25,595 nt of DNA from a virus. The notes beneath the pieces were generated by a model that saw only the letters and a program-made list of their open reading frames with translations, did not search any database and was not told the origin of the DNA. Shown here in pieces: positions 6,484 to 25,410 of this stretch. Positions within the stretch are counted from its first letter, which is position 1, and each line of letters opens with the position of its first letter. The stretch is taken from the IMG/VR virus record IMGVR_UViG_3300018023_000122, positions 1-25,595 of that record, one strand, 5' to 3'. A program made the translations under genes and the position numbers.

Positions 6484-9400
6484 TGTGCTGCACCCCTCGT
6501 CTTTAGTCTAGTCGGAATCAAAGCCACTGTCACCATCTGCAAATAGTACGCATTGTCTGTCTGTTCGGCCAAGGGCACGGACGAGAACTTGAGGAAGAAA
6601 CGGCTTCCCCGTGCAATAATCATTCCACCGCCGCCCCACTGCAAATCGATGTTCGGTTGGCTCACCGTGCGCTCGCAGGAAAGCGGCCAGATATTCGCGG
6701 GGTTGTTCGGCGCGACTTGCACGAGCATTGTCCCCGCCGGCCACGTCACCGTCGCCAGAACTCCGAAGAAGCCTTTTTGATGGCTGCCGACCTGCAATTG
6801 CTGCTCACTGCCCCTATTGACGAACCCGTAGGTGTAGTAATAGCTCGACACCAGCCCATAGTCGTCGTCGGTATATTTGCTCGGATTGAGCGTATACACA
6901 TTTCCATAGCCGCCCACGCCGGGAGTTACGCCGTTGCCGCCGCCGAGCACAAGGGACAGATTCCCAGCCTCCCGGTACATCAGCGCCGCGCCATTCATGC
7001 TCATGTTCCAGAGCGACCATTTGCGGTTATTGTCGGTGACGATGAGCCTTCCCGAAAATCCCACCCGGATGGGCGGTGCTCCCGCGATTGCCGCCGCCGA
7101 ATCGAGGTTCCGGTAGGACATGAACAGGAGCTTGCTCGGAGCCGTTGCAACGCCCATCGGCACGCCAAAGTATAGCGCTCTCTCGACAGGATCGTTCACG
7201 CACCAGACCGTCTGAGCCGCCGCTTGGTTGATTTGCTCCCAATCGGGCTGAATCTCCTGCGAAATCTTGTCTGGATAGGCCCCGCCGAAGATACGCGCCC
7301 CGGATAGCGACGCCCAGGCCATCCATTCTTCACCGCCTGAAGCCGCTGTGTCATCCGCCTGCGACTTGGTAAGGGAAAATGCCGAAAGCGCCCCGCAGTT
7401 CGCTCCTACCTCGTTCACCGTCCATCCAGAGGGTACCGTGGTGCCGTTGTCGGTCGTCTCGTGCAGCCTGCCCGAAGGCTCTTGCGTCAGCATGTAGAGC
7501 GTCTCTCGCATGACGCCAAAATCCATCACTTTGCGCGTGTCCGTGACCGGCCCGAACTTGCTCGTTACGCCGTCGATGCCCTCTGGATTGTTTCCGTAGG
7601 AGCCGAAAAGAACCCCATCGAGATAGGGCGTTTGAACCGGGATCACGGAAACTTCATCGGCGACGATATTTGCCGGCGCGCCGACAAGCACACTTCCTGC
7701 CATGCCAATTTGCAGGTTAACCGGAATTGCTGCGGGCGTCTTGGCGGCGAAAGTCGCTTCAAGATAAGAACCATTCACGTTCATCGCGGAATTTGGGAAC
7801 GTAGCTATCGTGCTAAATCCGCCCAAACTCGTGAAAAGTGAGACAACAGCCCCCGGAAACCCCAATCCTATTCCGTCAGGCTTGAACCATGCCCGGACCT
7901 TGTAAAGCGTGTTTGGCTGAAGAATTGGGTTTCCGTAGGCGTCGAGATAGGCTGACTGCGAGATAAAGCCACCATCTTGATGAGTGCCGGATGTCATTTG
8001 CCACTGCGTGTTAGGACGCCCAGCAAGACTAACCGTTACCCCTATATTCGTTCCCACAGAAGGAGTCGCCAGTGTCCATCCCTGCGGCGTAGTGGCACCC
8101 GCCGGATCGGCGTCGAATCCCATGTTGAGGAAATTCTGGACGCGGTTGCGCTGCCCATAGGTAATAAGGCGTGTAGTAAGGCGTGTAGCGTACTGTCCAA
8201 ATCCCACAGCGCCATCCAAAATAATCTGCGAGATCAGGTCGTTGCCGGGAATCGAAGTTGCCAAGCCCCCAAAAAGCGAGTTGTCTGAGAAATCCAAAAG
8301 CACTGATGTGGTCGTGTTGTCGTTGATCTGTGTTGCTTTGCCGACTACCTGCCCATTGACCTGCGGTGCCACGGGGAGATAGAAGAAGAAGGCTCCGTCC
8401 GCACCGGTGAACTCCAAAATCCGCGCTACGATATTCGTCGGTCCCTTGGGGATATCCGTGATCTGGAGATACTGGCCGCCGTTGGCAATGAATTTCACAT
8501 AGGGGCTCGGTTTCAGCACGGAGCCCTGACGGGTAACATAGTTCACGCGCATCAGGTGAAAACCGGGCGCAGCCTGCCCGAACGGGGTCGCAGTCCCAAC
8601 GGCCGTCGTTGCCCCATTTGGCCCGTACTGCTGATATTGGAACTGCGTCGGGCTCAGCACCGCGGTGACGTAGAAGGTTCCTTCCCAAATAAAGCCCACG
8701 GTTCCGGTCGACCAAGTACCATCGCAGTAGTTGATAGGGACATAGAAAGTGGTTGGGCTGGGAGCCGATTCAACCTGAAAATAGCTCGGTGTCGGAGTAT
8801 CGGGAACCGGCCATGAAAGTACGATATTGCCAGTGCTGGCCGTGGCGTTGATCACGTCCGGGTCCGTAGCGGTAATGGGAACCTGGCCATAGGAAATCTG
8901 ATCGGGCGAAGGAACCGAGACAACAGAGAAAGTTCCATTAAAGCTGAAAGTCGTCCCAGAGGTGGAAGTCGCTACCGAGGCAACCTGCACCACAGAGCCG
9001 GGAGTTAGATTGTGATTCGTCTTGGTCGTGATCGTCGTGATGCCTGCCGACCATTCCGCCGCAGCGATATCGGCTACTGTCCCTGGCTCTACTCCCACAA
9101 TTGAGACGTACTCTTCCGGTGCCAGACCATGAGGCTCTGTCGTAGTTACCAGAGCCAGCCCAGGGGCAGTTTCATTATCGATTACGATGGATTCAACAAT
9201 GGCGACAGTGCCCGAACCGGAGAGCGTGTAATACACAACGATGGTATAGGGCGTGTTTTCGGGAAACAGGAACACGCGATTGCCGAGAGCGGCTGAAAAC
9301 GCAAAGCCGAATGTCGGGTCATTGACAATCGAAGGTGTGAGCGATGCGCCCCAAAGATCGGCTGCCCCTCCGTAAGAAAAATTGGTTGGGGATTCAGGAA

Positions 9401-10328
9401 TCGGTGCGCCCGGCGTCTTGGCTGTGCCGATTTGACCGCTACTATTCCAGAGGGCGACGCCAGCCACGGTCGAAGCCGATGCGCCCTGGGTTCCAGCTTG
9501 AAACTCCACTTCCACGCCTAAAATGGTTGCATCGGAGGGAATAGTGAAGCCGTATCCAAATGATGTCCATGCAGACAACGGTGTAGTTCCAGTAAACACA
9601 TCCGTGCGCCACTGCGATCCATCCCACGACCAGTAAGGTGACGCTCCAGTCTGCCCGGAAGGGGCAGGAGACGTGCTGGTCTGATTCACGGTTGTCGAGT
9701 TGGAGTCCGGCACGTTGGAAATCTGCACCTGATAGCCAACCTGCAGCGGAGGGTTGACTGGAGTCGCGGTGTTGGCTGTGACGGTATTGTTGTTCCGCGT
9801 TAGAGTATTGGGGGACGCCGCCAACTGCGCTGGCGTGGGCGCAAGAGATTGCACCGTTGGCACAGCGCCGGGGCCGTCCTGCGTTACCCTGTCGAGGAAT
9901 GTGCCATCCCACTGTAGGGGCATCTCCTGCCCATGCAGACCGTCTGAGATAGCGATATATTCGCGCCCGAACGCAGTGGCTGACTTGGCGTAGCTGCCCG
10001 GCGTCGAGGTAAACAGCAGATTGCCGATTCCCGGTGCATTGATCGGGTCTTCCCAGAACAGTTGGCCGTTAGAGAATAGATATAGGTTCCTGATCAACCC
10101 CGTAGGCAGAACGAAGGATTTCTGATAAGTGCAGGTGGTATTGGCAGGAGCGTTCGACAATACTCGTTCGAGGCAGGGACGAGTCAGAACGGCGCCCGGG
10201 ATGTAAGTGTTGTCCTGCTCGTCGGGAGACACGCCTTCGGGGAGATCGGTGGGAGCCATCTCCGTGACGCGCCCACCGAAAGTTTCTAGCGGGACTTCAA
10301 TGATGCCCTTCGTCTGAAACCCCGGCAT
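6480..10328 (-). CDS. Giant tail hub / nozzle-type protein (1282 aa)
   Basis: The largest gene here, most likely the structural tail hub beneath the connector. Residues 1-170 contain VPLETFGGRVTEMAPTDLPE and a series of short strands with turn motifs (LFSNGQLFWED, ISDGLHGQEMPLQWDG). Residues ~390-570 hold two or three copies of a beta module, H-x-L-x-PG-x-x-V with FNGTFSVVSV-type strands (near 396, 440-465 and 554), as seen in phage virion proteins. Residues ~740-895 look like a carbohydrate-binding jelly-roll (LYKVRAWFKPDG). The C-terminal 380 residues have repeated strand-turn blades (GARIFGGAYPDKISQEIQPD; WCVNDPVERALYFGVP), suggesting a beta-propeller like those in P22 gp10/T7 gp12-class tail proteins. 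The start at ATG 10328 is chosen because GAGGGGG lies five bases upstream. The exact tail-component name is inferred. Confidence 0.7.
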   Translation of the reverse strand: MPGFQTKGIIEVPLETFGGRVTEMAPTDLPEGVSPDEQDNTYIPGAVLTRPCLERVLSNAPANTTCTYQKSFVLPTGLIRNLYLFSNGQLFWEDPINAPGIGNLLFTSTPGSYAKSATAFGREYIAISDGLHGQEMPLQWDGTFLDRVTQDGPGAVPTVQSLAPTPAQLAASPNTLTRNNNTVTANTATPVNPPLQVGYQVQISNVPDSNSTTVNQTSTSPAPSGQTGASPYWSWDGSQWRTDVFTGTTPLSAWTSFGYGFTIPSDATILGVEVEFQAGTQGASASTVAGVALWNSSGQIGTAKTPGAPIPESPTNFSYGGAADLWGASLTPSIVNDPTFGFAFSAALGNRVFLFPENTPYTIVVYYTLSGSGTVAIVESIVIDNETAPGLALVTTTEPHGLAPEEYVSIVGVEPGTVADIAAAEWSAGITTITTKTNHNLTPGSVVQVASVATSTSGTTFSFNGTFSVVSVPSPDQISYGQVPITATDPDVINATASTGNIVLSWPVPDTPTPSYFQVESAPSPTTFYVPINYCDGTWSTGTVGFIWEGTFYVTAVLSPTQFQYQQYGPNGATTAVGTATPFGQAAPGFHLMRVNYVTRQGSVLKPSPYVKFIANGGQYLQITDIPKGPTNIVARILEFTGADGAFFFYLPVAPQVNGQVVGKATQINDNTTTSVLLDFSDNSLFGGLATSIPGNDLISQIILDGAVGFGQYATRLTTRLITYGQRNRVQNFLNMGFDADPAGATTPQGWTLATPSVGTNIGVTVSLAGRPNTQWQMTSGTHQDGGFISQSAYLDAYGNPILQPNTLYKVRAWFKPDGIGLGFPGAVVSLFTSLGGFSTIATFPNSAMNVNGSYLEATFAAKTPAAIPVNLQIGMAGSVLVGAPANIVADEVSVIPVQTPYLDGVLFGSYGNNPEGIDGVTSKFGPVTDTRKVMDFGVMRETLYMLTQEPSGRLHETTDNGTTVPSGWTVNEVGANCGALSAFSLTKSQADDTAASGGEEWMAWASLSGARIFGGAYPDKISQEIQPDWEQINQAAAQTVWCVNDPVERALYFGVPMGVATAPSKLLFMSYRNLDSAAAIAGAPPIRVGFSGRLIVTDNNRKWSLWNMSMNGAALMYREAGNLSLVLGGGNGVTPGVGGYGNVYTLNPSKYTDDDYGLVSSYYYTYGFVNRGSEQQLQVGSHQKGFFGVLATVTWPAGTMLVQVAPNNPANIWPLSCERTVSQPNIDLQWGGGGMIIARGSRFFLKFSSVPLAEQTDNAYYLQMVTVALIPTRLKTRGAAQ

Positions 10329-24637: not shown

Positions 24638-24666
24638 TTGACGCCGTGAATACTTATGTATATGAT
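24638..24666 (+). promoter_or_regulatory. Strong sigma70 promoter P1 (divergent, plus strand)
   Basis: TTGACG (24638-24643), a 17-base spacer and TATGAT (24661-24666). The ATG at 24673 is exactly six bases after the -10, so the transcript would be leaderless. The spacer holds AATAC-TTAT-GTAT, also present in P2. Confidence 0.75.
24649..24661. promoter_or_regulatory. Putative operator O1 (AATAC-N4-GTAT)
   Basis: Imperfect dyad AATAC-TTAT-GTAT(A) lying between the -35 and -10 boxes of P1 and over the weak -35 area of the divergent minus promoter. The same element recurs at 24849-24862 at the same place inside P2. A repressor bound here could block both directions. Confidence 0.5.
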
Positions 24667-24672
24667 AGACGG

Positions 24673-24834
24673 ATGAGAAAGCTCCACGACCAATGCGCCC
24701 ACGGTCACCCATACGATAAGACGGTTATGCAGAATGGTGTACCGCGCCAGGTATGCTCGAAATGCCGCAAGGCTGCCTATAGCCGCTGGAAGTCAAAGAA
24801 AACAGGAAAGATAGATTGTGGAAAAAATAATTGA
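24673..24834 (+). CDS. Small zinc-finger protein, HNH-nuclease N-terminal-type (53 aa)
   Basis: Cys/His pattern C8-AHGH-...-C28-SKC31 (QCAHGHPYDKT and QVCSKCRKAAYSRWKSKK). This CxHGHxY...CxxC..R....K module is common in phages as a stand-alone small protein and as the N-terminal finger of HNH nucleases; no nuclease core follows, so it is a lone zinc-binding module, probably DNA-binding. It starts at ATG 24673 just after the P1 -10 box (leaderless). An in-frame upstream start at 24625 would read through the promoter and is rejected. Confidence 0.7.
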   Translation: MRKLHDQCAHGHPYDKTVMQNGVPRQVCSKCRKAAYSRWKSKKTGKIDCGKNN

Positions 24835-24842
24835 AATAAGTG

Positions 24843-24871
24843 TTGACGAATACAGATGTATTTGCTACTCT
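24843..24871 (+). promoter_or_regulatory. Sigma70 promoter P2 (plus strand)
   Basis: TTGACG (24843-24848), a 17-base spacer ending TTTGC, and TACTCT (24866-24871) with an extended TGC before it. Transcription would begin near 24878, seven bases before the hairpin leader repeat. Same -35 and same spacer dyad as P1. Confidence 0.6.
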
Positions 24872-24884: not shown

Positions 24885-24912
24885 AGAGGCAACCAGCCTC
24901 ATGGAGGAACGA
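24885..24912 (+). repeat. Leader repeat copy 1 (hairpin plus ribosome site)
   Basis: 28-base element identical to 25205-25232. It contains GAGGC-AACCA-GCCTC, a perfect five-pair stem, then GGAGG (24903-24907), six bases before ATG 24914. CCTC-ATG-GAGG inside it can form an alternative hairpin that would hide the ribosome site. Confidence 0.85.
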
Positions 24913-24913
24913 A

Positions 24914-25165
24914 ATGGAAAAGCTACTGGGTGAACTGACTTACGACCTTCCCGGAGCCCGCGGTGGTCACCGTTCTGAACCAATTTTCTTCGATGTTCCG
25001 CAGCCCGAACTGGACGAAGACGGCTATATGCTTCCGCAAGTTGCTGAAGCATATACGCTCGCTCAAGCGCAGCTCGAAGATCGTTTGGTGCTCTTGCGCG
25101 ATGATTCGGAAGCAACCAATATTCGCCTGCGCAGTGACGAACTGGTGCTGCGGTACGCTTTCTAA
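24914..25165 (+). CDS. Hypothetical acidic protein (83 aa)
   Basis: Begins MEKLLGELTYDLPGARGGHR; acidic with a helical second half (QVAEAYTLAQAQLEDRLVLL, RDDSEATNIRLRSDELVL). No family recognised. Start chosen at ATG 24914, six bases after GGAGG of the leader repeat and downstream of P2. The frame is open upstream to a GTG at 24818 whose translation, MEKIIEISVDEYRC and on, also looks protein-like, so a 115-residue form cannot be excluded, but it would span P2 and the leader repeat. Confidence 0.65.
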   Translation: MEKLLGELTYDLPGARGGHRSEPIFFDVPQPELDEDGYMLPQVAEAYTLAQAQLEDRLVLLRDDSEATNIRLRSDELVLRYAF

Positions 25166-25204
25166 CCTTCCCCGCGCCGTCTCCACGCACCATCAACCGA
25201 GATC

Positions 25205-25232
25205 AGAGGCAACCAGCCTCATGGAGGAACGA
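25205..25232 (+). repeat. Leader repeat copy 2 (hairpin plus ribosome site)
   Basis: Exact second copy of the 28-base element at 24885-24912, placed the same distance before the next gene: stem 25206-25220, GGAGG 25223-25227, ATG 25234. It lies in the 68-base gap after the 83-residue gene. Confidence 0.85.
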
Positions 25233-25233
25233 G

Positions 25234-25410
25234 ATGGAATGGATTAGCGTCAAAGAGAAGTTGCCGCCGTGTATGCTTACGGTAATCACCACCAACGGTC
25301 GAAAAGTCACGCAAGCCTATCGCACCTCCAACGATGCGAGCGCGTTCTCAGCCTGGGCTCCGAACCAGGTCACGCACTGGATGCCGCTCCCCGAGCCGCC
25401 GAAAGAGTAG
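25234..25410 (+). CDS. DUF551-family protein (58 aa)
   Basis: Starts MEWISVKEKLPPCMLTVITT and ends QVTHWMPLPEPPKE, the two signatures of the DUF551 family (WISVxxRLP... at the start, VTHWMPLPEPP at the end) found in many phage and prophage accessory regions. Family function is unknown. Slightly short: the middle part of the usual domain is condensed. ATG 25234 follows GGAGG of leader repeat copy 2 by six bases, implying the same translational control as the preceding gene. Confidence 0.88.
   Translation: MEWISVKEKLPPCMLTVITTNGRKVTQAYRTSNDASAFSAWAPNQVTHWMPLPEPPKE

Follow-up and report, generated by a model that had tools for sequence, protein, structure and literature searches.

The window analysed here, a 25.6-kb linear virus fragment (25,595 nucleotides in full), carries minus-strand genes that distantly match terminase, portal and head proteins. 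Divergent rightward genes are headed by two copies of a leader, AGAGGCAACCAGCCTCATGGAGGAACGA, at positions 24885-24912 and 25205-25232. The copies are identical at 28/28 bases and lie 320 nt apart from start to start, and the match extends to 34/35 bases through ATGGAA; by estimate, the chance expectation for a 28-base repeat in 25.6 kb is about 5e-9. Each copy is composed of the hairpin GAGGC-AACCA-GCCTC, the linker AT, the Shine-Dalgarno (SD) sequence GGAGG and an ATG 6 nt further on. On the plus strand, hairpin 1 occupies 24886-24900 (arms 24886-24890 and 24896-24900; 36.9 bits with model R1), GGAGG as read from the sequence follows 2 nt past it at 24903-24907, and the start codon lies at 24914. 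The intergenic hairpin 2 occupies 25206-25220 on the same strand (arms 25206-25210 and 25216-25220; 37.9 bits), with GGAGG again 2 nt past it at 25223-25227 and the start codon at 25234. The preliminary description of an identical 28-base hairpin/ribosome-site leader before two adjacent genes was thus confirmed in its repeat, stem, GGAGG and ATG spacing. Only these two copies were found when the whole 25.6-kb window was searched; viewed as a duplication, their borders are sharp. The near-identical contigs L003 and L004 contain the same leaders and added no variation.

The downstream proteins are unrelated, as had been proposed. ORF 1 (24914-25165, plus strand) encodes an 83-aa orphan with no Pfam or PHROG match, and ORF 2 (25234-25410, plus strand) encodes a 58-aa DUF551 protein (PF04448, E 4e-11). 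Upstream of copy 1 we located a putative sigma70 promoter (TTGACG, 17 nt, TACTCT; 24843-24871, plus strand) that matches 8/12 consensus positions and was sub-threshold in the promoter scan, but is supported by promoters of family members at the same distance from the hairpin. Its spacer contains a perfect operator-like inverted repeat, AATACA-GA-TGTATT (24849-24862). For copy 2, separated by 39 nt from the stop codon of gene 1, no promoter was visible by scan; because this copy lacks a promoter of its own, the leader is likely to act at the mRNA level rather than as a promoter component. Further upstream (24638-24834), a small HNH-like ORF has its ATG 6 nt past the end of a promoter, TTGACG-17-TATGAT, and its mRNA may for this reason be leaderless.

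Predicted folds of the window leader

Taken alone, the window hairpin is not unusually stable (z -0.35), and its significance derives from recurrence and covariation, not from energy. The leader was originally proposed to be a two-state translational switch, in which its 3' arm pairs either with the 5' arm or, as CCTC-ATG-GAGG, with the SD, masking the ribosome site. The alternative pairing can be formed in the window copies and in L019. However, the predicted SD-masking fold of the window leader (-3.7 kcal/mol) is 4.8 kcal/mol weaker than the SD-open fold (-8.5 kcal/mol), and masking is not conserved: among the 46 leaders described below, the 3' arm and the SD self-pair with -3 kcal/mol or better in L019 and in the window's two copies (scored from L003) alone, and this pairing is impossible in the GCGGC/GCCGC class and in members with GGAGA or GGAGC. 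We therefore regard such a switch as highly improbable. When longer stretches are folded, pairing between the coding region and the SD of copy 1 becomes possible. A loop-SD pseudoknot (CCA with UGG) was rejected as sterically unlikely, with just 1 nt available to span the 5-bp stem.

The small overlapping frames noted earlier, MEERNG and MEERDG, do exist, starting at 24901 and 25221, but they are not conserved elsewhere. These frames need the AT linker and are consequently missing where the linker is A, ATA or ATT, so an overlapping frame was rejected as a conserved feature of the leader.

A leader family in unrelated phages

A first family scan left the loop free, and a further scan of viral contigs, unconstrained at stem pair 2, at loop positions 1-2 and in the SD distance, matched at least 119 stretches. 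Among the matches listed, removal of coding and doubtful cases gave 46 curated leaders from 38 loci that fall into 34 DNA-similarity groups; most of the remaining matches of the free-loop and free-stem scans were chance or coding matches inside genes and were discarded. Because every search constrained part of the motif, the prevalence and diversity reported here are lower bounds; the scans fixed most of the stem and loop, true variability is therefore under-sampled, and many of the sequences may share descent.

The leader genes are small and mostly first-in-operon phage genes, and 44 translated ORFs fell into 39 blastp clusters (median length 84 aa). The family consensus is A-stem-HACCA-stem-A-N0-3-GGAG. 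AACCA is the loop in 32 of the 46 leaders, followed by TACCA (10), CACCA (3) and ATCCA (1), and a few further members have ACCC, AACCC or a 9-nt loop. An adenine precedes the hairpin in 44/46 cases, a position that the search did not demand, and another follows it in all 46. GGAG begins after 1-4 nt and is separated from the start codon mostly by 6-7 nt. A recognisable sigma70 promoter ends 10-14 nt upstream of 15/46 leaders, compared with 2.1 in shuffles.

An identical 22-mer including the loop is present in another phage (L019, L027, L028), where it precedes a different, 74-aa ORF and has TTGACA-17-CATAGT just upstream. No ORF match at E<1e-3 was found between the 25.6-kb window and the 42-kb L027 record, which nonetheless have the leader in common. 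The exact leader is mostly absent from terminase relatives of the window phage or the L027 phage. One relative (L013, 50% terminase identity) carries GCGGC-ATCCA-GCCGC-AGGAG behind a TTGACA box, such that the stem letters differ and the pairing is kept. When whole records were searched with a covariance model, up to six leaders were found per phage (G037), with three each in G019, G034 and G056, among others.

Several arrangements around the leaders were observed. At L216:20-54 the hairpin is doubled head to tail (GAGGCAACCAGCCTCA twice) with one SD behind. L276 (G019:28000-31500) contains tandem cassettes, with three leaders and two copies of the second RNA described below in about 1.1 kb, and its last two leaders have exactly the same 40 nt upstream. 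On contig 3300032770_000999 (L160/L277), two type-II hammerhead ribozymes on the minus strand (1625-1682 and 1142-1203) each lie just upstream of a leader; they match RF02276 with 39.7 bits (above the gathering score) and 32.7 bits (below it), and by cleaving themselves they could place the 5' end of the mRNA close to the leader hairpin. Genes or fragments of IS1595/ISXO2-type transposases occur a few kb from the leaders of L208, L013, L223, L178, L167, L144 and L229. In L027, the leader-bearing ORF is followed at 8440-9840 by a long protein with repeats of about 20 residues (SGCTSLTSLKADAAKTVYA), and a second copy of the start of this protein lies downstream.

Rfam gave no match at the window leaders, nor at the leaders or second RNAs of member loci, although short hairpins are hard for its models. 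Isolated phages yielded no convincing match to either RNA, and no description of the leader hairpin was found in the literature searched, most subscription journals being outside it. A host origin was rejected: an exact-pattern scan of 84,980 species genomes returned chance-like matches only. By model or pattern, no leader was found in about 195 Verrucomicrobiota, 301 Chloroflexota and 398 Pseudomonadota genomes, two matches being unconvincing; Acidobacteriota genomes were covered by exact-pattern scans alone.

Conservation of stem pairing and loop sequence

Stem pair 2, which the scan had left free, is Watson-Crick (A-T, C-G or T-A) at 29/29 non-coding leader sites with an NACCA loop, compared with 16/43 at sites with other loops. 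In the leader alignment 100% of stem cells pair and both sides have changed in 4/5 pairs, which 0/500 shuffles equalled; these covariation counts are inflated by related sequences. Even so, the distinct stems (GAGGC, GCGGC, GTGGC, GCCGA, CTCGC and GCCGC/GCGGT) point to several independent events. L160 has three leaders with three different stems on one contig, all with an AACCA loop. The predicted hairpin energy ranges from -7.2 to -10 kcal/mol across all 46 leaders.

The best independent case of stem and loop conservation is L083, a locus reached via the second RNA and not via the leader pattern. Its ORF is preceded by GTGCAT-AACCG-ATGCAC-CATAGGAG-CTACAAA-ATG, with the SD region ATAGGAG and the promoter TTGACA-18-TACTAT. 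Comparison of the predicted structures shows that the leader is conserved as an RNA structure, its loop as letters, and that its distance to the ribosome site is fixed. The earlier proposal that selection acts on the leader is supported, since unrelated genes in unrelated phages carry it and stem-preserving base changes are found (for example the GCGGC/GCCGC stem of L013); stems do not vary freely around a conserved ribosome site, and pairing is maintained.

A second structured RNA behind the stop codons

Both the window and L027 have CTTCCCCGnGCC(G)GTCTCCACG one base past the stop codon of a leader-bearing ORF. The window holds just the first ~21 nt of this second RNA (CTTCCCCGCGCCGTCTCCACG; 25167-25187, plus strand), a truncated 5' end that agrees with L027 in position and sequence, is complete in other members and is too short for model R2. 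The complete RNA, discovered by reading beyond the stop codons of other leader ORFs, spans ~75 nt and comprises TAAnCTCCGCCGCGCCGnTCCnACGGTAAGCGGAGCGTC, a hairpin with loop GUGGUA and a hairpin GCCGG-UACGUAAC-CCGGC; examples are found at L214, L216, L208, L235 and L083, among others. Compensatory changes were observed in 13/15 of its predicted pairs.

Of 41 leader-bearing records, 30 contain the second RNA; it shares the strand of the leader and usually lies 190-530 nt behind it. This count includes the 25 training sequences of the model, which match by construction but were gathered mainly by position after the ORF. By comparison, a full copy was found in 1 of about 99-100 other loci, namely L083, whose leader is divergent; L152 and L182, counted among these other loci, themselves carry leaders, which barely alters the contrast. 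The second RNA is apparently an undescribed conserved phage RNA in its own right.

Its loops UGGU and (U)CUCC are complementary, in antiparallel order, to the leader loop ACCA and the SD GGAG. As a real contact between the two RNAs this complementarity is suggestive only. Each match is four letters long, L013, with its ATCCA leader loop, keeps UGGUA in the second RNA with no compensation, and the window has just the first part of the second RNA.

Discussion

The nearest described phenomenon is the SAS/ESAS system of cluster K mycobacteriophages, in which the 13-bp SAS (GGGATAGGAGCCC) overlaps the SD in 11-19 copies per genome of one phage cluster, and the ESAS adds 17-bp imperfect inverted repeats upstream, with a 4-13 bp spacer (PMC3203893, PMC12699233). 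Both systems place short repeats, in one orientation, near the starts of many unrelated genes, which are non-structural in the SAS case and fall into the 39 clusters for the leader; they are rare outside phages, and the SAS too is suspected of a translation-initiation role and has inverted repeats upstream in its extended form. Unlike the SAS, the leader lacks the 13-bp sequence, and unlike the ESAS it forms a 5-bp perfect stem with a 5-nt loop upstream of the SD. It is also present in 1-6 copies per phage in many unrelated phages, so that sequence, structure and host range all differ.

Lambdoid boxB hairpins of the nut sites have a 5-bp stem and a 5-nt loop in early transcripts, with a purine-rich loop and an adjacent boxA. 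The leader shares the stem and loop size, but its loop is HACCA and it is tied to the SD; inspection by eye of the window revealed no boxA beside its hairpins. The second RNA can be compared with the put antitermination RNA of HK022, a structured RNA of an early operon that acts without a protein: size and early-operon location are similar, and hairpins and position differ. MS2-type coat operators are phage translational operators in which an RNA hairpin with a conserved loop lies at the ribosome site. The leader resembles these in having a conserved hairpin with a specific loop near the SD, but its SD lies outside the hairpin and its target genes are many and unrelated. Translational operators also feature in a review of post-transcriptional control in T4 (PMC3014915).

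We consider it probable, with moderate confidence, that the leader belongs to a phage-borne family of cis-acting translation-initiation RNA hairpins that are read through their HACC(A) loop. In such a model the ribosome site would be single-stranded in the default fold, with translation switched on, and the adjacent, exposed ACC(A) loop would act as a docking site that tunes initiation. Candidates for the docking factor are an RNA-binding protein, from the phage or its host, and the UGGU loop in the second RNA. Recurrence before unrelated ORFs, covariation, the near-fixed loop and the favoured SD-open fold support this model, while the few members with ACCC, AACCC or 9-nt loops count against an absolute loop requirement. 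Among the shared proteins no candidate for an RNA-binding regulator was found: those common to several member loci were terminase subunits and other ordinary phage genes. The IS1595-type transposase was rejected as a common trans factor, its distance to the leaders being variable.

The main rival is pure insulation, whereby a ligand-free mini-hairpin close to the 5' end of the mRNA prevents closure of the ribosome site and delays 5'-dependent decay, the loop letters being just inherited. A stable hairpin is predicted in every curated leader, and the fixed-distance promoters would place the RNA start a few nt before the stem. Insulation does not explain the loop, however, as HACCA is retained while stems change wholly (L160, L083, G037), and intergenic copies, of which window copy 2 is one, do not sit at a 5' end set by a promoter; we judge this explanation possible but not probable. 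Somewhat more doubtful is long-range pairing, in which the second RNA, lying at the 3' end of the ORF, would use its UGGU and CUCC loops to pair with the leader ACCA and the SD GGAG and so close the ribosome site. The co-occurrence of the two RNAs and the antiparallel order of their motifs are consistent with this, and the ACCG loop of L083, the one other locus with a full second RNA, still fits UGGU with a wobble. Against it stand the shortness of each match (four letters), the uncompensated L013, the lack of covariation at loop position 1 and the lack of a complete partner for the window copies and in 11 records.

On a DNA-level reading, the leader would have no RNA function and would mark the boundary of a cassette or of a recombination event, spread by copying from phage to phage. 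This would account for variable ORFs flanked by an unchanging leader on the 5' side and an unchanging element on the 3' side, for the tandem copies in G019 and for the sharp duplication borders in the window. Yet leaders are always on the sense strand and tied to an SD and start codon, their stems change in a compensatory manner and their conserved loop is asymmetric, making this origin improbable. A more elaborate reading would be a two-RNA expression cassette. Here an interchangeable small ORF would have an HACCA hairpin at its ribosome site and, starting one base past a stop codon, a three-hairpin RNA of ~75 nt; through loop-loop contacts (ACCA/UGGU and GGAG/CUCC) this 3' RNA might control how translation starts on that ORF or on its neighbours. 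We put this forward tentatively and think it unlikely.

The leader family is probably a portable translation-start control element and is absent from the RNA-family catalogues and literature searched. It would add an apparently undescribed class of RNA control elements that recurs across dozens of unrelated phages from the environment, with none found in the isolated phages searched. The leader marks small phage genes of no assigned function as controlled alike and provides a searchable signature for them, and so compact an element could double as a translation-start part. The paired 5' and 3' RNAs offer a testable model for how diverse small phage genes may be placed under one translational control.
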